Positions 2,253 to 55,430 of a stretch of 64,000 nucleotides of DNA are shown here, in pieces. The DNA is from Microbacterium sp. Se63.02b. GTDB lineage: Bacteria; Actinomycetota; Actinomycetes; Actinomycetales; Microbacteriaceae. Made by a program: the position numbers and the translations under genes. The notes beneath the pieces were generated by a model. The model was not told where the DNA came from and made no database searches. It was given only the letters and a program-made list of their open reading frames with translations. Location: assembly GCF_014171575.1 (NCBI RefSeq), contig NZ_CP050453.1:496001-560000 (forward strand). The letters run 5' to 3'. The first letter of the stretch is position 1. The number at the start of each line of letters is the position of its first letter.

Positions 2253-3281
2253 GTGAATCTGAGCAGGTCAGCACGAGTCGGAGTCATCGGCGGAGGGATC
2301 CGAGGCGGGATGTTCGCCCGCGCGCTCCAGGAGAACCCCGATGCGGAACTCGTCGCGATCTGCGACCGCAGCCCCGCCGTGCTCGCGGCGATGGTCGACC
2401 AGCTCGGAGTTCCGGGTCATGCGAGCACCGAGGACCTGCTGTCGGCCCACCCCGAGCTCGACGCCGTGGTGATCGCCACCCCCGACTTCGCGCATCGCGA
2501 GGCCGCCGTGCTCAGTGCCCGCGCCGGACTCCACCTCATGATCGAGAAGCCGCTGGCGACCGAGGTCGACGACGCTCGGGCCATCCTCGACGAGGCCGCG
2601 GCGGCGGGCGTCCGTGTCATGGTGGGCTTCGAGAACCGGTGGAACGTGCGGTACTCCGCCGTGCGCGACCGGCTCGGCGTCGACGGCGACCCCCGCATCA
2701 GCGCCCAGATCATCCACCTCAACGACACCGTGTTCGTGCCGACCGAGATGCTCTCCTGGTCGGCGAAGAGCTCGCCGGCATGGTTCCTCATGCCGCACTC
2801 CCTCGACCTGGCGTGCTGGATCGGCCGCACCACTCCCGTGTCCGTGTATGCCGTCGGCGCACGCGACCGGCTCTCGGACTCCGGCATCGACACCTGGGAC
2901 CGCGTCAACGCCATCTTCACCATGGCGGACGGCTCGCACGTGGCGCTCAACTCCTCGTGGGTGCTGCCCGAGTCCATGCCCTCGGTCTTCGACTTCCGCT
3001 ACGAGATCCAGTCCGCCGCGCACGTCGTGCACATCGACGGCGCCGACGATGGAGTGATCGACTACGGTGCCGACCGCGGACAGCTCGTGCAGTCGGCGGT
3101 GTACGAGCGTGCCGGCCGCATCCACGGCGTGCCGATCGACATGGTCTCCGACTTCGTCCGCCTCGTGCGCGGCGAAGAGGTCGAGGTGCCGGACGCGCAC
3201 GACGGGCTGCTCATCACGGCGGCGATCGTGGCCGTGCACACCGCACTCGAGTCCGGACAAGTCGTCGACATCTCGGTCTGA
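2253..3281 (+). CDS. Gfo/Idh/MocA-family oxidoreductase
   Basis: A 342-residue NAD(P)-dependent sugar or inositol dehydrogenase type enzyme. The N-terminal Rossmann fold has VGVIGGGIRGGMFARAL (residues about 8-24). The family EKPLA motif (MIEKPLATEVDDA) is near residue 98, and the C-terminal alpha/beta domain has the conserved MPHSLDLACWIG region. It starts with GTG, shortly after the divergent operator. It heads an operon with the ABC importer just downstream, so it probably oxidises the imported sugar or polyol. myo-Inositol-type or keto-sugar substrates are typical of the family, but the exact substrate cannot be read from sequence. Confidence 0.85.
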   Translation: MNLSRSARVGVIGGGIRGGMFARALQENPDAELVAICDRSPAVLAAMVDQLGVPGHASTEDLLSAHPELDAVVIATPDFAHREAAVLSARAGLHLMIEKPLATEVDDARAILDEAAAAGVRVMVGFENRWNVRYSAVRDRLGVDGDPRISAQIIHLNDTVFVPTEMLSWSAKSSPAWFLMPHSLDLACWIGRTTPVSVYAVGARDRLSDSGIDTWDRVNAIFTMADGSHVALNSSWVLPESMPSVFDFRYEIQSAAHVVHIDGADDGVIDYGADRGQLVQSAVYERAGRIHGVPIDMVSDFVRLVRGEEVEVPDAHDGLLITAAIVAVHTALESGQVVDISV

Positions 3282-3298
3282 CCCCCCGCATCACCCCG

Positions 3299-3379
3299 CA
3301 CCACCGCATGAACCTGCACCACCGCATGAACCTGCACCACCGCATGAACCTGCACCACCGCATGAACCTGCACCACCGC
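3299..3379. repeat. 18-bp tandem repeat, 4.5 copies
   Basis: The unit CACCACCGCATGAACCTG repeats head to tail from 3299 to 3370, with a half copy to 3379. The four full copies are identical. It fills the gap between the oxidoreductase stop and the binding-protein gene. The period is a multiple of three and one frame reads MNLHHR repeats, but no start, ribosome site or family supports translation. Copy number may vary between strains. Confidence 0.9.
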
Positions 3380-3435
3380 GTCACCCGATCCACGCGTCAC
3401 CCCCATCGTCACGAACTTCACGAAGGAGCAAGGAA

Positions 3436-25770: not shown

Positions 25771-28700
25771 GTGAACGCCACAGCCACAGCATCCTCAGGG
25801 AGCACCCGCATACGCGTGCTGCTCGCTGCCTTCGTCTCGTTCCTTCTGGTCGCCGCCGGTGCGGTGATCGTGCCGCCCGCACACGCTGCCGCCGCTTCCG
25901 TCACGGCTGCGATCGCGTCGGCCGGCTCCTCCGGCATCAGTGTGCAGGTGCAGGCCGACGGTCTTCCCGAGGTCGAGGGCGCATATGCGGCGCTGATCGT
26001 GAAGGGGACCGAGAGCGGTCTCAGCGGGAGCGGGGATACGCCGCATTCGTGATGCCGACGGTCGCCGGCGGAGCGAGCACGTTCACGCTCGACGCTCCGG
26101 CCGGGTCGCTGGATCGCACGAAGTCGTACGAGGTGCTCGTGTGGCAGAAGCACTCCAACCCGACCGAGACCACGATCTACGGCCGTGGGGACGTCGCCGT
26201 CTCGGCTGCGCAGTGGGACGCCGTGTTCGGACCCGTGCCCACGGACCCCGGCACCGACCCGGGTACGGATCCCGGAACGGACCCGGGTACGGACCCCGGC
26301 ACCGACCCGGGTACGGATCCCGGAACGGACCCGGGTACGGATCCCGGTACCGACCCGGGAACAGACCCCGGCGAGACGCCGTACTCCCCGGCGATCGAGG
26401 TCTTCCTGGCCGACGGCACGACCCCCGCGAAGGGCAAGGCGCTCGTCGCCGGCGACGAGATCGTCGTGAAGGGCTCCGGCTATGACCCCGCGGCCAACGT
26501 CGGAGGCCGTGGCGTCCCGATCCCGAAGGATCTGCCCCAGGGTACGTACGTGGTGTTCGGCAACTTCGCCTCGACGTGGCAGCCGTCCGCCGGTGCGGCC
26601 TCGTCGACCCGGTCGGTCGGAGCGCAGGTCTGGGCACTGTCCGAGGGAGTGTTGGACCAGGTGCCCGCGCAGTACCAGGGTGCGATCCGCGCGCAGTGGG
26701 TCGACATCGCCGCTGACGGCACCTTCCGGGCGACCCTGACGGTGAAGGACACGGCGGCGACCCCCGGTTCCTACGGCGTCTACACCTACGGGGCAGGCGG
26801 AGTATCCAACGCCGCCCAGGAGAAGAGCGTCGCCCTCGATTACACGGCCGCACCGAAGATCACTGTCGCCTCGGCGCTTTCGGCCGCCCCCGCGGGCATC
26901 ACTGCGACCGTGACGGGTGCGAACTTCGGCTCGGCGACCGGCGTCTACGCCGCACTCATCGAGGCCGGAACCGAGGCGGAGGTCACCGCCGGCGGCGGAT
27001 TCCTCGCGATGCAGTACGTGCGCGGGATCGAGGATGGCGCGTTCACGGTCGACCTCACCGCCGCGGCCGACAAGCTCGACCGCACGAAGTCGTACGAGGT
27101 GATCGTGTGGAAGCAGCACACGATGCCGAACGCCGACACCATCCATGCCCGCGGGGCCGTCGCGATCAGCGACGCCGACTGGGCGGCGCTGACGCCCCCG
27201 TCGTTCTCGCCGGCGATCGAGGTGTTCCTGGCCGACGGTGTGACTCCTGCGGGGACGACGGCCCTCAGAGCGGGCGACAATGTCGTCGTGAAGGGGTCGG
27301 GATATGACCCGGCGGCGAATGTCGGAGGTCGCGGGGTGCCGATCCCGAAGGACCTTCCGCAGGGCACGTATGTGGTGTTCGGCAACTTCGCGTCGGTGTG
27401 GCAGCCCTCGGCAGGGGCGGCATCGTCGGCTCGTTCGGTCGGTGCACAGGCATGGGCGCTCGCGGAGGGCGTGCTGGATCAGGTGCCCGCGCAGTATCAG
27501 GGCGCGATCCGTGCGCAGTGGGTCGACATCGCCGAGGACGGCACGTTCGAGGCGACTCTGACACTGAAGGACACCGCGGCCACGCCCGGCTCCTACGGTG
27601 TGTACACGTACGGCGCCGGTGGCGTGACCAACGCGGACCAGGAGCAGAGCGTCACCCTGAATTACGGCGTCGGCGCTGCGCTCACCACGACCGTGAAGAC
27701 GGCCACGGCGAAGGACGGTCTGACCGTGACCGCGGCGGCGACCGACCTCGGCGCGATCACGGGCGCGTACGTCGCGCTGATCGAGGCCGGCACCGAGGCG
27801 GACGTGACCGCGGGAGGCGGCTTCCTCGACATGAAGTACGCCACCGGCATCACGTTCGGCACCCTCGCGGTCGACCTCACGACCGCGGCGAAGAACCTCG
27901 ACCGCACGACGTCTTACGAGGTGATCGTGTGGAAGCAGCACACCATGCCCACCGCCGACACGATCTACGCGCGCTCGACCGTGACGATCACGCCGGCGCA
28001 GTGGGATGCTCTGCTCGACGTGAAGGAGCCGGAGAAGCCCACGACGCCCACAAAGCCGACGACCCCGCCGGCGAGCGTTCCGGGCGGTTCTCTCCGCTGG
28101 GCGATCTCCTCGGATTTCACCAGCTACGTCACGGGCGGCATCGCCCAGGGGTCCATCGCGGTCTCGGACGGCGCGACGCGCTCGGGTGGGCAGTTCCAGT
28201 TCGGCCAGACCGTGGGCGGCGACTTCGATCGGAAGAGCGGACTTGGCAGCGTCAACTACCGCGGATCGGTGCGCTTCACCGGGCACCACGGAGTGCTCGA
28301 CGTCACCGTGTCGAACCCGCAGGTCCGCATCACCTCGTCCACCGCGGCGACGCTGTATGTGACGAGCGGCGGCACGCAGGTGGCCTTCGCGACGCTCGAC
28401 CTCTCGCGGGCGGCGCGCATCGCGGCAGGCGGCGCCGTGACCTACACGGCGGCCCCCGCGGCGCTGACGGCTGCCGGACGGGATCGGATCCTCTCCGGGT
28501 ACTCGACCGACCTCAACCCGGTCACGTTCACGATCGGCTCCGTCGCGGCTGCACCCTCCGGGACGACGGGCACCGTGGCTGCGGCCGCCGTGAAGGCGAA
28601 GACGACCCTGCCCGCCACGCCGCCGACGTCGGACGGGATCCTCGTCGACGAGGAGAACCTCGCAGCTCTCGAGTCGGGGAAGCCGGCGACCATCACGGCG

Positions 28701-49176: not shown

Positions 49177-50291
49177 GTGGCTGCCTCCCCCACCAACCCC
49201 TATTCCGAAGCCGGCGTCGACACCGCTGCAGGTGATCTCGCCGTCGAGCTGATGAAGTCGTCCGTGCGCGCGACGCACGGCCCCGAAGTGCTCGGCGGTG
49301 TCGGCGGATTCGCCGGACTGTTCGATGCCAGCGCGCTGCGCGACTTCCGTCGCCCGCTGCTCGCGACCAGCACCGACGGCGTCGGCACGAAGGTCGCGAT
49401 CGCGCAGGCGATCGACAAGCACGACACGATCGGCCAGGATCTGGTCGGCATGGTCGTCGACGACATCGTCGTGGTGGGTGCGAAGCCGCTCTTCATGACC
49501 GACTACATCGCCTGCGGGAAGGTCTTCCCGCAGCGCATCGCCGACATCGTCCGCGGCATCGCCCAGGCATGCGCGGCCACCGGCACGGCGCTCGTCGGGG
49601 GCGAGACTGCTGAACACCCCGGCCTTCTCGGTCCGCGTGACTACGACGTGGCAGGAGCGGCGACCGGAGTGGTCGAAGCGGATGCCATCCTCGGCGCGGA
49701 GCGCGTGAACGACGGCGACGCCGTGATCGCCGTGGCATCCAGCGGCCTGCACTCCAACGGCTACTCCCTCGTGCGTCACATCGTGACCCGCGCGGGTATC
49801 GGCTACGGCGACAACGCCGCCGATTTCGGCACCACCTGGGGTGAGGCCCTGCTCGAGCCGACGCGTCTGTACACGCTCCCGCTGCTCCGTCTGATCGAGG
49901 AGCTGTCAGGCGGTGTGCACGCACTCAGCCACGTCACGGGCGGAGGTATCGCGGCGAACCTCGCGCGCGTGCTCCCCAGGGCAGCTGGGCGGAGGTCGAC
50001 CGCAGCAGCTGGTCGCCGAGCCCCGTGTTCCGCGTGCTGAGCGACATCGCCGGCTCCACGTTGGAATCGGCCGAGGGTACCTGGAACCTGGGGATCGGCT
50101 TCCTCGCCGTGGTCGCGGCGGAGAAGAAGGATGCCGCGATCGCGGCGCTGAACGCGGAGGGCATGCCCTCGTGGCAGGTCGGGACCGTCGGCTTCGGCCC
50201 GCGCCCGACCGGCGAATTCGAACAGGGCGCCAAGGGCGTCGACGGTGGAGCGGTGCGCCTGGTCGGCGCCTACGCGGACGGAGCAAAGTAA
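49177..50291 (+). pseudogene. purM: Phosphoribosylformylglycinamidine cyclo-ligase (PurM), one frameshift, probably functional
   Basis: About 371 residues; makes AIR from FGAM with ATP. Conserved segments: STDGVGTKVAIAQAIDKHDT, DIVVVGAKPLFMTDYIACGK, GTALVGGETAEHPGLLG and SSGLHSNGYSLVR; then after the shift GIGFLAVVAAEKKDAAI. One C added to CCCC 49974-49977 gives ARVLPQGSWAEVDRSSW. A housekeeping gene, so the break is almost surely an error. GTG start. purF follows after 6 bases. Confidence 0.95.
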
Positions 50292-50297
50292 GAGCCC

Positions 50298-51770
50298 ATG
50301 TGCGGCATCGTCGGAATGGTGGGCTCTGCCCCGGTCAATCAGGACATCTACGACGCACTCCTGCTGCTGCAGCACCGCGGCCAGGATGCGACGGGCATCG
50401 CCACCGCCGAGGTGAACGGTGTGATGCACAACGCCAAGGCGCAGGGCATGGTCCGCGAGGCGTTCCGCACGCGGGACATGCGGGCCCTGCTCGGCAACGT
50501 CGGCCTCGGTCACGTGCGTTACGCGACCAAGGGCACGGCGTCGAACGAAGAGGAGATGCAGCCGTTCTACGTGAACGCGCCCTACGGCATCATCCTCATC
50601 CACAACGGCAACCTCACCAACACGCGTGAGCTCACGGCCGACATGGCCAAGCGCGACCGCCGTCACCTCAACTCTTCGAGCGACACCGAGCTGCTGCTGA
50701 ACGTGCTCGCCGGTGAGCTGCAGAACACGACCTCGACCGTCGACCTCGACCCCGAGCGCATCTTCGAAGCAGTGGCCCGAACGCACGAGCGCATCGAGGG
50801 CGCATACGCCGTCATCGCGGTGATCGCCGGGTACGGTCTGCTCGCGTTCCGTGACCCGTTCGGCATCCGGCCCCTGATCCTCGGTCGCCGTCCTTCGACG
50901 GTCCCCGGTGCGGAAGGCCGCGACGAGTGGGTCGTCGCGAGCGAGTCGCTCGTGCTCGAGAACGGCGACTACGAGGTCGTCCGCGAGGTCGAGCCCGGCG
51001 AGGCCGTCTTCATCACGAACGACGGCGAGCTGTTCACCAAGCAGTGCGCGGCCGAGACCTACCTGGCTCCGTGCGCATTCGAGTACGTCTACCTCGCCCG
51101 CCCCGACTCCGTGATGAACGGCATCTCGGTGTATGAGTCGCGTCTGCGCATGGGGGACAAGCTCGCCGACACGATCGCGAAGCATGTGCCGATGGACAAG
51201 ATCGATGTGGTCATGCCCATTCCCGACTCGTCGCGCCCCGCGGCGATGGAGGTCGCCCGCAAGCTCGGCATCGAGTACCGCGAGGGCTTCTACAAGAACC
51301 GCTACGTCGGTCGGACCTTCATCATGCCGGGGCAGGCGGTGCGCAAGAAGAGCGTGCGCCAGAAGCTCAACGCGATGTCGACCGAGTTCCAGGGCAAGAA
51401 CGTGCTCCTGATCGACGACTCCATCGTGCGGGGGACGACCTCCAAGGAGATCATCCAGATGGCCAGGGATGCCGGAGCCGCCTCGGTGACCTTCGCCTCC
51501 GCTGCTCCGCCCGTGCGGCATCCGCATGTCTACGGGATCAACATGCCGTCGCGCCACGAGCTCATCGCCCACGGACGGACGATCCCCGAGATCGCAGAGG
51601 AGCTGGGCTGCGACCACCTCGTGTATCAGGAGGTCGACGATCTCAAGGCCGCGATCACCGAGGGGTCCGTCCTGGAAGACCTCGACATGAGCTGCTTCGA
51701 CGGCCGCTACGTCACCGGCACCGTCACCGATGAGTACCTGGCCTGGGTGGAGGGGTCACAGACCTCATGA
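50298..51770 (+). CDS. purF: Amidophosphoribosyltransferase (PurF)
   Basis: 490 residues. Starts MCGIVGMVG with the N-terminal nucleophile Cys2 exposed after Met removal. Glutaminase part: LLQHRGQDATGIA and GHVRYATKGTA; synthase part: PIPDSSRPAAMEVARKLGI, then VLLIDDSIVRGTTSKEI, the PRPP-binding loop. It makes phosphoribosylamine, the first committed step in purine synthesis. Its TGA overlaps the ATG of the MFS gene, so purM, purF and that gene are coupled. Confidence 0.97.
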   Translation: MCGIVGMVGSAPVNQDIYDALLLLQHRGQDATGIATAEVNGVMHNAKAQGMVREAFRTRDMRALLGNVGLGHVRYATKGTASNEEEMQPFYVNAPYGIILIHNGNLTNTRELTADMAKRDRRHLNSSSDTELLLNVLAGELQNTTSTVDLDPERIFEAVARTHERIEGAYAVIAVIAGYGLLAFRDPFGIRPLILGRRPSTVPGAEGRDEWVVASESLVLENGDYEVVREVEPGEAVFITNDGELFTKQCAAETYLAPCAFEYVYLARPDSVMNGISVYESRLRMGDKLADTIAKHVPMDKIDVVMPIPDSSRPAAMEVARKLGIEYREGFYKNRYVGRTFIMPGQAVRKKSVRQKLNAMSTEFQGKNVLLIDDSIVRGTTSKEIIQMARDAGAASVTFASAAPPVRHPHVYGINMPSRHELIAHGRTIPEIAEELGCDHLVYQEVDDLKAAITEGSVLEDLDMSCFDGRYVTGTVTDEYLAWVEGSQTS

Positions 51771-53082
51771 CGATGCCGAGCGCGCGACCGCTGTGGCAGG
51801 GTCGGGCTCTCGCACTCGTGGGGATCGTCCTGGTGGCGTTCTCGCTGCGATCGGCGGTCGCCTCGCTCTCACCCGTGATCGACCACGTCGCGGCCGAATT
51901 CCCGGTCTCTCCGGTCGCTGTCGGTCTGATCGGCGCTGCTCCGCCCGTGTGCTTCGCGATCTTCGGTCTGCTCACCCCGCTGTTCGAGCGCCGCTTCGGT
52001 CTGGAGCGGATGGCCGTGGCCGCGATCGTCCTGATGACGGCTGGCATGCTCCTGCGTGCATGTGCGCCGGAATCCTGGACGCTCCTCGGCGCGACCGCCC
52101 TGGTGTTCGCGGGCGTCGGGTCGGGCAACGTGCTCCTGCCGCCTCTGGTGAAGAAGTACTTCGCCGACCGCCTCGGCGTCATGATGACCGTCTACTCGTC
52201 GACGCTCGCCTTCTCCACCTTCCTGCCGCCTCTGGTCGCCGTGCCCGTCGCGGACTCGCTCGGGTGGCGGGTGTCGCTGGGGATGTGGGGCGTCGTCGCT
52301 GCGCTCGCGCTCGTGCCGTGGATGACGCTGCTGGTGCGCTCGCGCACCGCGCCTGCCGCGCAGCCCATGACAACCGAGCTGCTGATGCCGGATCCGACCG
52401 ACGGTGTGGACGACCTGCGCGACGCGGTCGCCGCCGCGACGGGACCCATCACGACGCAGCCGGCCAGCGCCCGGGTGTTCGGCCGGCTGCGGCGCCTTCC
52501 GCTGGCCTGGTCGCTCGCATTCGTCTTCGGCACCTCTTCGACCATGGCGTACGTCGCGTTCGCCTGGCTGCCGACGATGCTCATCGACATCGGCGGCGTC
52601 ACGCCGGCGACGGCGGGCTTCCTTTGTCGCTGTTCGCGCTCGTCGGTCTGCCGTGCTCGATGCTGGTCCCTGTGCTCGTCGTGCGTTTCCAGGCCACGCG
52701 GCCGCTGTTCTTCGTCGCCGTGGGCGCTGGACTCGTCGGCCTGCTCGGCCTGCTGCTGGTGCCGACCGTGGCGCTGCCGTTGTGGGTCGCGGTGTTCGGG
52801 CTCACCGCCATCATGTTCCCGCTGAGCCTCGTGCTGCTCAGCATCCGTGCCCGCACCCCCGAGAGCGCTGTCGCGTTGAGTGGATTCGTCCAGAGCATCG
52901 GGTACGGGATCGCCGCGATCTTCCCGCTGCTGGTGGGGCTCCTCCACGAGACGACCGACGGCTGGCAGGTGCCGCTGCTCGTGGTGATCGGGGTGCTCGT
53001 CGCGTCGATCCCCGCGGGCATCGTGGCCGGTCGCCGACGCACCGTCGAAGACGAGTGGGAGCGCCGCCACGGCCGCTGGTGA
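51767..53082 (+). pseudogene. MFS transporter, CynX/NimT-like, one frameshift
   Basis: About 438 residues, 12 predicted helices. Starts with LWQGRALALVGIVLVAFSLR and SAVASLSPVIDHVAAEFPVS, the opening of the cyanate/nitroimidazole-type transporter group. After the shift: MLVPVLVVRFQATRPLFFVA and SGFVQSIGYGIAAIFPLLVG. One T is missing at TTT 52623-52625 (ATAGFLLSLFALVGLP when corrected). Coupled to purF by an ATGA overlap. Substrate unknown; purine or small-anion export are possibilities. Confidence 0.82.
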
Positions 53083-53142: not shown

Positions 53143-53278
53143 CCGCATCCGGACACGACGAAACACCCGCACGTCGTGCGGGTGTTCCGGTCGAACAGAG
53201 AGGCGGTCAGGCCTTCTCTAGCTCGTCCTCGTCTTCGTCTTCATACTCATCGGCCCACTTGTCGACATATGCGTCTTC
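53143..53278. repeat. 136-bp direct repeat, left copy (displaced end of DUF3073 gene)
   Basis: Identical over 136 bases to 54491-54626. It contains the last 21 codons and stop of the DUF3073 gene plus its downstream hairpin, but no start, so it is a remnant. The repeat ends exactly where the stop codon of the neighbouring 148-residue gene begins. It marks the distal boundary of the inserted islet. Confidence 0.93.
53162..53186 (-). terminator. Terminator hairpin, left copy
   Basis: AACACCCGCAC, loop GTC, GTGCGGGTGTT, an 11-bp perfect stem. It is the duplicate of the DUF3073 terminator and now ends transcription of the islet genes. Confidence 0.75.
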
Positions 53279-53723
53279 AGCGAGCGCGGACGAGGTTCGT
53301 CGTGGCGATCAGGTACGAACACCTGATCGCCATTGCGTACTTCTCCTCGATCGAGACCGATCGGTCGTCGTTCAAGACTCTCTTCAGGTCTTCCATGCGA
53401 AGGCCGGTCAGCTGCGAGATGTTCTGAGGGCTGAGGTGCAGTTCCGCGGTGAGTGACTCGACGATGGTCCTTAGACGGTCGTCGTCCCCGATCGTCAGTC
53501 CACTTGTGAGATGCACTGCGAGCGTGGAAAGACGCGCAGTCTCCCCTGCAGTGAGGGCCGGATGCGCTGCTCTCACGGTACTTACCTCGCCGTGCGCCGC
53601 CAAGAGCGACTGGAGTCTTGATTGCTCGATACCTGTGATCGTCTCGATCGCCAGGGCCGTGATAGCGCCTTCCGCGATGAGACGACGAAACTCGCCGAGG
53701 ATGTTGATGCTGTTCGAGGACAT
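53277..53723 (-). CDS. Islet gene 2: 148-residue cytoplasmic protein with two helix-rich HTH-like halves
   Basis: Not recognised as a named family. The N-terminal half has INILGEFRRLIAEGAITALA and IETITGIEQSRLQSLLAA, the second half LTAELHLSPQNISQLTGLR and MEDLKRVLNDDRSVSIEEKY. Both look like helix-turn-helix units (helix, IxxLTG turn, helix), with LTAGETARLSTLAVHLTSGL between. No signal peptide. ATG lies 12 bases after the stop of the secreted islet protein, so they are co-transcribed. The stop codon TGA is made at the junction with the 136-bp repeat. GC is visibly lower than in the neighbours. A regulator of the secreted partner is the simplest guess. Confidence 0.7.
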   Translation of the reverse strand: MSSNSINILGEFRRLIAEGAITALAIETITGIEQSRLQSLLAAHGEVSTVRAAHPALTAGETARLSTLAVHLTSGLTIGDDDRLRTIVESLTAELHLSPQNISQLTGLRMEDLKRVLNDDRSVSIEEKYAMAIRCSYLIATTNLVRAR

Positions 53724-53735
53724 GCGGGATCCGAG

Positions 53736-54272
53736 TCAGGGGTAGGTGTAAAGCGTGGCATTCGGTACGACGTGCGCCACGATCACGCCGGCCAGGTCCG
53801 CTGTTCCGGTCAGCGTCCCTGAGTATCGATGGTTATGGAGTTTGCTCGTGGGAGCCGTACCAGAGAACGCAAATACGGGGGTAAAGCCGCCGCCGAGTCC
53901 GCTGGACAGGTCGGTGATGTGGAACTGGCCGATGAAGCCTGTGGCAGGGCAGGTCATGTTGATGCCCCAGCTGTAGGTGCCGGCCGAGGCCGTGACGGTC
54001 AGGGTGCCGCAATTCGACGAATAGGTCACTCTAGGTGCAACTGTTCCCGCTTCAGGAATCGGCCCCTCGAGCATGGGGAACGTTGCTGATTCCCCGTCGC
54101 TGAGAGCCACCTGCTGTCCGCCGACATCCAGCAGGTAGTCGTTCTCAGCAGGCGCGTTCTCTCTCGCGTGTGTTCCACCGTCTGTTGCACGGGCGAGGGC
54201 AGGGGACCCTGCGCCTACCACGCTCAAAGACACCAATACCGCGGCGAGCCATACCTTGGCCTTGATCTTCAC
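53736..54272 (-). CDS. Islet gene 1: small secreted protein, unknown function
   Basis: 178 residues from GTG 54272, which follows CCGGAGGTTATT. Signal peptide KIKAKVWLAAVLVSLSVVGA with cleavage near SPALARA. The mature part is Gly/Ser/Thr-rich, beta-strand-like, with a pair of cysteines (SSNCGTLTVTASAG and GINMTCPATGF) and an end FSGTAPTSKLHNHRYSGTLT then VVPNATLYTYP. No enzyme motif. Clearly less GC-rich than the flanking genes, suggesting acquisition. It is first in the two-gene islet. A longer start at 54389 is rejected because it would bury the signal. Confidence 0.72.
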   Translation of the reverse strand: MKIKAKVWLAAVLVSLSVVGAGSPALARATDGGTHARENAPAENDYLLDVGGQQVALSDGESATFPMLEGPIPEAGTVAPRVTYSSNCGTLTVTASAGTYSWGINMTCPATGFIGQFHITDLSSGLGGGFTPVFAFSGTAPTSKLHNHRYSGTLTGTADLAGVIVAHVVPNATLYTYP

Positions 54273-54490
54273 AATAACCTCCGGCTTATGAGTCCCGCCT
54301 CCACAAGCCTTGCTGGGTTCGCGCCCCAAGTCTGTCCCCTCTTCGGAGGACAAGCGCGTGCAGATGGTCGGAGGACTGGGCTGGGGCACGGTTGTGAGCG
54401 CGCAGGAGCCGAGGGCGCGATGTCGTCGACGCGTACGACGGATAAGTCATCGCACGCACTGCATGCATCCGTGCAAGGCGCAGAGCAGGA

Positions 54491-54626
54491 CCGCATCCGG
54501 ACACGACGAAACACCCGCACGTCGTGCGGGTGTTCCGGTCGAACAGAGAGGCGGTCAGGCCTTCTCTAGCTCGTCCTCGTCTTCGTCTTCATACTCATCG
54601 GCCCACTTGTCGACATATGCGTCTTC
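54491..54626. repeat. 136-bp direct repeat, right copy (in the intact DUF3073 gene)
   Basis: Perfect copy of 53143-53278. It covers the terminator hairpin and the 3' part of the intact DUF3073 gene and stops inside that gene at the codons for DEDAYVD. The distance between repeat starts is 1348 bases. Confidence 0.93.
54510..54534 (-). terminator. Terminator hairpin of the DUF3073 gene
   Basis: Perfect 11-bp stem AACACCCGCAC/GTGCGGGTGTT with a GTC loop and TTTCG beyond it on the minus strand, 20 bases after the DUF3073 stop. Confidence 0.75.
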
Positions 54627-54740
54627 GTCGGTCGGGTGAGCCAGCTCGCGCTCGAGCGCGGAGTAGTTCACCGACGGACTGTACGCCTTGAGTTCGCGGG
54701 CGATCTTGGTGTGTTTCGCCTTCTGACGGCCACGGCCCAT
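54555..54740 (-). CDS. DUF3073 domain protein
   Basis: 61 residues, MGRGRQKAKHTKIARELKAY at the start, then YSPSVNYSALERELAHP and a very acidic end (DEYEDEDEDELEKA). This matches the small actinobacterial DUF3073 family in full. Basic N-terminus and acidic C-terminus; the function is unknown. The 3' end serves as the target and boundary of the islet described at 53279-54490. Divergent from the universal stress protein gene. Confidence 0.92.
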   Translation of the reverse strand: MGRGRQKAKHTKIARELKAYSPSVNYSALERELAHPTDEDAYVDKWADEYEDEDEDELEKA

Positions 54741-54888: not shown

Positions 54889-55430
54889 ATGACCGACAGC
54901 ACCTCCACTCCGTCCGATGAAGCCGCACAGAACGCGGCACTGCAGAAGGCCGTCATCGTCGGCATGCAGCTGGATCAGGACCCGCACGTCCTCGCCGAAG
55001 CCGTCCGCTACGCGCGGCTGCTCGGCGCGCCGCTCGTGGTCGCCCACGTCGACGTGACGCGTTTCGTGACCTACGAGGATCCGGATGGCTACGTCCACTC
55101 GGCTCCGATCGACATCAACTTCGACGCCGGTGCTGCGGAGTTCGAGGCCGTCGAGGCGGCCGCGGCGAAGCAGCTCCAGGGCACGGATGTCACCTGGACC
55201 GCGCGTCAGCTCGTCGGCGACCCGGCCCTGGCGATCAAGCAGCTCGCCCACCGGCTCGACGCTCAGCTGATCGTCGTCGGCACGCGCAAGCGTGGCATCG
55301 GCGAGTCGATCAGGAGTTCTTCACGGGCTCTGTCGCGGCGCGGCTCGCGCATCGGCAGCATCGTTCGATCCTCGTGGTGCCGCTCGGCGAGTCGGTGCCG
55401 GACGAGCAGAAGGAGATCTGGCCGGACTAA
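54889..55430 (+). pseudogene. Universal stress protein (UspA family), one frameshift
   Basis: About 180 residues. AVIVGMQLDQDPHVLAEAVR and LVVAHVDVTRF form the first strands; AHRLDAQLIVVGTRKRGIGE is the nucleotide-binding loop; after the shift SIQEFFTGSVAARLAHRQHR and SILVVPLGE follow. One C is missing near 55311. ATP/AMP binding is likely from the G-x-R-x-G loop. A strong terminator follows 23 bases later. Confidence 0.85.

Follow-up and report, generated by a model that had tools for sequence, protein, structure and literature searches.

The 64,000-nucleotide stretch of Microbacterium sp. Se63.02b analysed here (the window) contains, behind the gene for a DUF3073 protein, an islet of two genes bracketed by long direct repeats, and judged from the sequence at this site in relatives the islet is an insertion. 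The feature is real, and it follows a known pattern, long target duplication, with new cargo and with several cases per genome. Our preferred account of its origin, to which we give a probability of about 0.55, is that this low-GC two-gene segment entered as captured DNA in the course of host repair or replication, with a long piece of the target being duplicated. Other genomes are cited below by our own handles, beginning with G, and their loci by handles beginning with L.

The repeat and its host gene

Positions 53143 to 53278 and 54491 to 54626 (window coordinates) are identical in 136 of 136 nucleotides at a spacing of 1348, as a preliminary description of this DNA had claimed. The repeat is maximal, in that the immediately flanking bases differ. 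It has only two copies in the whole 4.08-Mb genome and is the sole long, perfect, non-tandem repeat seen in the window; tandem repeats with periods of 12 and 18 bp are seen elsewhere in it, at 26229-26396 and 3260-3385. Its content is the last 72 coding nucleotides of the DUF3073 gene (23 codons and the stop) followed by 64 nt downstream. The proximal copy, 54491 to 54626, forms the end of an intact DUF3073 gene (PF11273 by Pfam, 61 aa, 54555 to 54740 on the minus strand), which is the host gene whose end is duplicated. The distal copy, 53143 to 53278, is the displaced one and holds only the DUF3073 tail with a terminator-like hairpin. The hairpin inside the repeat folds at −37.4 kcal/mol over a 73-nt stretch (z = −3.4). 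In the proximal copy (54507 to 54537, minus strand) it would end DUF3073; in the distal copy (53159 to 53189, minus strand) it would end the islet operon and, from the opposite side, the gene of an MFS-type transporter (named by eye). That gene, at 51767 to 53082 on the plus strand, is the convergent neighbor, with 60 bp between its stop and the distal repeat copy. No RNA family reached its gathering threshold in the window.

The MFS-type gene has an apparent frameshift near 52620 in the assembly used. Apparent frameshifts at 49177-50291, 52580-52640, and 55290-55330 of the window interrupt genes that by eye are purM-like, MFS-type, and UspA-like; these are probably assembly indels. Genome completeness is given as 92%. 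Such frameshifts in neighboring genes indicate an assembly that is not fully polished, and an exact repeat could mislead an assembler, so duplication by the assembly has to be considered as the origin of the second copy. We find this hardly credible: a unique segment of 1212 bp separates the copies, both islet proteins are also found in a second contig (4,083,922 vs 4,082,358 bp) that is probably an assembly of the same strain, and the same arrangement is seen in other genomes, among them G355, which is a single contig.

The islet and its two genes

Between the repeat copies, the islet occupies positions 53279 to 54490, 1212 bp with a GC content of 0.616 against 0.692 for the window, and one of 314 equal-length windows is as low. 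The DNA is probably foreign. Its two genes are co-oriented on the minus strand, so the lower-GC interval with two co-oriented genes stands as first described. One gene, 53736 to 54272 with a GTG start at 54272, encodes a protein of 178 aa that is predicted to be secreted, a Sec-type signal peptide having been recognized by eye. A Pfam scan assigns this protein to no family. Residues 51-178 were modelled as a beta-rich domain (mean pLDDT 74; 73-97 by blocks), and since the domain has no PDB structure match at E = 0.001 or better, no function follows for the protein. Its partner, 53277 to 53723, is an HTH_60 protein (PF20317, E = 1.6 × 10−24) of 148 aa. The HTH_60 gene ends at the junction and does take its stop codon from there, as had been noticed: the T of its TGA belongs to the islet and the GA to the repeat.

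No recombinase or integrase was found among the islet ORFs, in agreement with the preliminary description, and the islet ends carry no terminal inverted repeats, the best match having a score of 6 with 179 of 300 random pairs being as good. The latter observation bears on the idea that the islet was carried in by a transposase whose target duplications are long and variable, such as those of IS1549 and IS1634. The likeness is in the long, variable direct repeats, which for these elements span 8-514 bp in the available text of PMC2266710, and this is the range seen here. As described there the elements carry a transposase, whereas here neither such a transposase nor terminal inverted repeats were found. 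The genome has no match to the IS1634 family (NF033559), in a search that did match 5 of 14 control genomes, 1 of them over the cut-off, and the ends differ among islets. A transposase passenger is in our judgment very unlikely.

Empty sites and the gap behind DUF3073

In G219, G154, G022, and G021, a single DUF3073 tail has the MFS-type gene directly behind it, and the window flanks joined at the repeat match this arrangement. The segment is thus absent at the orthologous site of these relatives, as in insertion with long target duplication, and the earlier claim of an insertion is upheld. At E = 0.001, 356 of 366 Microbacterium genomes match DUF3073, and our genome alone has a second match, to the tail only; the other 365 comprise 355 genomes with one match, 10 with none, and none with a second, in a search that would miss a tail much shorter than that of the 136-nt repeat. 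Two repeat copies in relatives that lack the islet, which the preliminary description had named as the observation that would speak against it, are not what is seen, each of the 355 having one match. The repeat is, in the same way, a duplicate of a target that is single-copy in relatives, namely in the 355 genomes for DUF3073 and in 8 of 8 loci for the OpuAC case described below.

The preliminary description had also proposed looking at this locus for empty sites and for other cargo, and both are present. Among 27 DUF3073 loci of relatives, with one genome per species, 4 have less than 0.2 kb in the gap and count as empty, 11 carry other cargo of about 0.9-13.9 kb between DUF3073 and the MFS-type gene, and in the remaining 12 the MFS-type gene is outside the fetched stretch. 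Gene content turns over in the gap behind DUF3073. Comparison of the DUF3073 region (450 nt) with the sequence behind it gave no exact direct repeats of at least 14 nt in 23 loci, of which two are empty and some stop short of the MFS-type gene. The gaps in L120-L146 measure 0.08-13.9 kb and hold, by eye, MOSC-like, HNH-like, two-component, and sugar-transport genes. In G223, the gap has a cutinase-like gene split in two and, by eye, a gene for a small membrane protein, contents that read as a decayed cutinase islet.

Tyrosine-recombinase islands at gene 3' ends rebuild the gene end beside the insert and displace the old end, and in some actinomycete elements the att sites are identical over about 100 bp. 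The islet could have been integrated site-specifically at the DUF3073 end by such a recombinase, or one of the serine type, acting in trans, with the 136 bp as attL and attR; a repeat at a gene 3' end and the 8 PF00589 matches of the genome would agree with this. The preliminary description had likened the islet to integrative elements of this kind, and the geometry of rebuilt and displaced ends holds good; the att-type element is not supported, no recombinase, terminal repeat, or shared core having been found. A recombinase supplied from elsewhere had been suggested. In the genome-wide search, which was for the tyrosine type (PF00589), the 8 matches fall in 7 regions that are all at least 200 kb from both repeat copies, and no recombinase sits beside another copy of the 136 bp, the genome having only the two. 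No integrase of this type was found inside or beside the islet, and, in further departure from tyrosine-recombinase islands, the repeats described below are variable, with one 5'-end case and no common att core.

Other points oppose an att-type element. The gap often holds cargo, yet a second DUF3073 match is seen only here, in 1 of 366 genomes, which counts against it; the islets use five different targets without a shared core; and the same cargo family is found elsewhere without long repeats. We hold this form of integration to be improbable. When a duplication starts within a gene and reaches past its terminator, with the insert between the copies, the gene always stays whole, so that selection alone gives the look of a rebuilt gene, and this restoration geometry is what is expected of any viable insertion with such a duplication.

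Further repeat-bracketed stretches in the same genome

Direct repeats of at least 45 bp at 80% or better within 8 kb were surveyed in 1.66 of the 4.08 Mb (41%) of the genome, covering 1-860 kb, 2.4-2.8 Mb, and 3.68-4.08 Mb. There were 25 hits; by judgment, we excluded those due to gene families or tandem arrays, one repeat with three copies, and pairs that were short or weak. The pair at 432291-432916 (86%) was examined and not counted as an islet, nor was 636491-641494, with its three copies; these are about 400 bp each at 99% identity within 5 kb. Five of the hits bracket low-GC segments (0.601-0.645 vs 0.68-0.69). Besides the window islet at the DUF3073 gene end (53143 and 54491 in window coordinates, 136 bp, 100%), these have repeats at an OpuAC gene end (143757 and 145106, 304 bp, 99.3%), a DUF981 gene end (148622 and 155688, 328 bp, 91.5%), an ABC-2 permease gene end (164531 and 166084, 194 bp, 98.5%), and a CorA gene end together with its convergent neighbor (183808 and 186568, 74 bp, 100%). 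Host genes were assigned by Pfam, except the permease, which was assigned by its G155 orthologue, with our own permease frame being whole. In all five, the host gene remains complete with one repeat copy as its end, and the second copy is an end that has been displaced.

For OpuAC, one tail copy is present in 8 of 8 loci of relatives, with 1.5 kb downstream seen, and for the permease one tail copy is present in three islet-free RidA/permease loci (G237, G134, and G187). The DUF981 and CorA stretches are, we infer, insertions as well. The OpuAC islet has a 258-codon frame that continues into the repeat; it looks cut by the junction, although starts in the same frame lie 10 and 19 codons further in, so that truncation is not proven. 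The DUF981 islet is 6.7 kb with several genes. The permease islet encodes a cutinase-like protein (PF01083) and a 120-aa protein that is of membrane type by eye; a second cutinase-like gene of our genome, 4002964-4003710, is in a locus without such a repeat. All five cases are within 1-860 kb and none was seen in the other 0.8 Mb surveyed. Four of the five lie within about 45 kb (G000:C1 143-187 kb, L167-L169), and this zone differs among relatives; in G222 and G223, OpuAC and the permease islet are about 2 kb apart.

Repeat-bracketed islets in other species

The genus was searched with the cutinase-like and 120-aa proteins of the permease islet, and loci of 3-4 kb were scanned for repeats. 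The same permease is the site in G355 (190 bp, 98.4%), in G155 (161 bp, 98.1%), and, in decayed form, in G154 (106 bp, 88.7%). Five sites in other species are at other genes, one of them weak: in G068 (62 bp, 96.8%), in G219 (159 bp, 96.2%, L282 1008-1166 and 2950-3108), in G251 (65 bp, 89.2%, a candidate case), and two in G174, which we call G174a (247 bp, 99.2%) and G174b (135 bp, 99.3%), the latter from the partner-protein search and outside the cutinase count. By the criterion of 50 bp or more at 88% or better, 7 of 27 cutinase-like loci are bracketed by repeats and 20 are not, vs 1 of 75 control loci; the 27 are the distinct ones among 28 from genomes other than ours, and the single positive control locus is the G154 islet, already among the cutinase cases. 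The difference has P = 3 × 10−4, or 7 × 10−4 with the shared permease site taken once and the G154 control dropped. In 803 kb of other loci, not randomly chosen, no repeat of at least 74 bp at 90% or better was seen. Repeat length is long and variable among insertions, 74-328 bp in our genome and 62-247 bp in others.

The ends of 13 islets have no exact shared 10-nt word, save for the permease-site islets and one 10-mer, which is to say no common core of the kind that tyrosine-recombinase elements have. In G174a, the repeat takes in the final codons of one gene, the spacer, and the 5' part of another gene, so 3' ends are not required, and this speaks against a 3'-end att rule. In G219 (L282), the 3' end of the membrane-protein gene that the islet itself carries is part of the repeat, which suggests that insertions there were nested or repeated. 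A Cro/C1-type HTH gene is beside the cutinase gene in G068, G219, and G251, the last being below cut-off.

The permease site bears on a single-crossover, Campbell-type origin, in which a non-replicating circle with a DUF3073 tail and the two genes would enter by homologous recombination and so duplicate the tail. That yields exactly the observed structure, tails of 74-328 bp could support homologous recombination, and any existing islet could release such a circle. In a tree, the copies at the permease site group by genome, with support of 0.74 for ours and 0.98 for G155, while those of G355 group with the copies of its sister G354. Grouping by genome favors the single crossover, and fits gene conversion or separate events; repeat identity at this site may therefore reflect gene conversion and not recency. 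A similar circle model has been proposed for repeat-flanked transposed genes of Arabidopsis in the available text of PMC2869330. The difficulty is that the circle must bear the same species' tail beforehand, which explains spread within a species but not first formation at five genes, and the breakpoints at the permease site differ among our genome, G355, and G155. As the source of the islet, it seems to us fairly unlikely.

How the islet may have entered

In the preferred reading, insertion with long target duplication, loose DNA would be captured at a break during host repair or replication, with the target segment copied on both sides. This might happen by a staggered break whose offset ends are filled in and joined to a loose fragment, or by a polymerase that switches to foreign DNA and then returns upstream of its departure point. 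Ku-type end joining could be involved; the genome encodes Ku, which shows that end joining is possible and nothing more. A dedicated recombinase would not be needed. Selection for intact neighbors would explain why the duplicated segment spans from the gene interior to past the gene end. RecA-type recombination between the repeats would release a circle of 1348 bp and leave an empty site, and such a circle, bearing the tail, could later spread the islet within the species.

Several observations sit less easily with this account. Neither a donor nor an intermediate was seen. The clustering of our own cases in 1-860 kb counts against it, not being strongly predicted by a random process, and the enrichment of repeats at cutinase islets could instead mean a dedicated mechanism. 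The OpuAC frame that runs into the repeat also counts against it, with the inner starts leaving the truncation reading open. The inclusion of the end of an islet gene in the G219 repeat hints at nested events beyond a single-step model. One wider proposal is that Microbacterium has enzyme-free mobile islets, typically a secreted effector and a small partner, that bring or make a long copy of the target tail and then move by homology alone, a circle being released and the tail directing entry at the same site in a related cell. We offer this tentatively and think it fairly unlikely.

Comparison with known systems

Insertion with long target duplication is known for restriction-modification genes of Helicobacter pylori (Nobusato et al. 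2000, Gene 259:99; Furuta et al. 2010, as cited in PMC1643837, PMC3031569, PMC4978471, and PMC3154945). As reported in the available text of those papers, the two share an insertion that is missing in a relative and a long direct target duplication of variable length. They differ in the host, here an actinobacterium with five cases in 1.66 Mb of one genome, and in the cargo, which here pairs a secreted protein with a small HTH_60 or membrane protein or consists of other genes. Restriction-modification cargo is typical and not required. It was not found in the islets scanned: the window islet has HTH_60 and a protein without a Pfam family, and the others have cutinase or no Pfam family, in a scan that for our genome covered the window and permease islets. 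Searches of an open-access library turned up no account of long target duplication in Microbacterium.

PMC2884548 describes small segments that come and go between core genes, a number of them flanked by direct repeats that permit deletion. In the available text, 66-94% of those repeats are under 30 bp, compared with 62-328 bp here, mostly at gene ends. The transposed genes of Arabidopsis (PMC2869330, in the available text) have similar flanking direct repeats, often matching the empty target, for which duplication or circle insertion was proposed, but they belong to a plant genome and ours to a bacterial one.

The cargo and its distribution

Of 366 genomes, 16 contain a match to the secreted protein, ours included and 5 of them weak, and 20 contain a match to the HTH_60 protein. 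In 9 of the 10 other genomes of the genus with a secreted-protein match below E = 10−11, the HTH gene is adjacent, and the same gene order is found in one Glaciihabitans and another Microbacteriaceae genome (L147 and L148). Among the loci listed, the neighbors of the pair mostly differ from one to the next. Shared neighborhoods are those of G354 and G355, which have the same context; of G328, with two neighbors in common with one G119 locus; and of G225, which shares neighbors with one G130 locus. A sigma-factor-like neighbor (by eye) is common to the pair loci of G230 and G309. Flanking repeats of at least 50 bp at 88% were found at 0 of 37 secreted/HTH loci elsewhere, some of them overlapping or weak, and one search gave only three repeat pairs, of 26-27 nt at 85-88%. 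The long duplication is therefore no rule for this cargo. The pair, being adjacent in most genomes and without long repeats elsewhere, is thus a co-inherited unit that does not always bring repeats; an element linked to the cargo was considered and rejected, the pair being conserved at other loci that are free of long repeats. A plasmid collection has no match to either protein and a phage collection has none to the HTH protein. Viral contigs hold no relative of the secreted-protein or HTH-protein alignments, and a contig search with the HTH protein alone found nothing.

Going by gene content, the recurrent pairing of a secreted protein with a small HTH or membrane protein suggests that the former is an effector and that the latter has a protecting or regulating role; the DUF981 islet departs from this plan. 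Small islets without integrases or transposases make up a large share of bacterial gene turnover, and their entry is rarely visible. Several insertion junctions are still readable in one genome, which opens the entry step to study and to testing. The frequent cargo of a secreted protein and a small partner suggests that genes of competition or surface interaction may spread in this way, beyond restriction-modification. The repeats predict spontaneous loss of the islet and its re-entry, with excision of the window islet expected to restore the arrangement of the empty sites.

At the loci of the pair in G354 and G355 (L044 and L045), the HTH_60 gene is whole, and the secreted protein is matched in its last 41 residues only, at 73-83% identity within a 90-aa frame, so that the secreted partner there appears decayed or chimeric.
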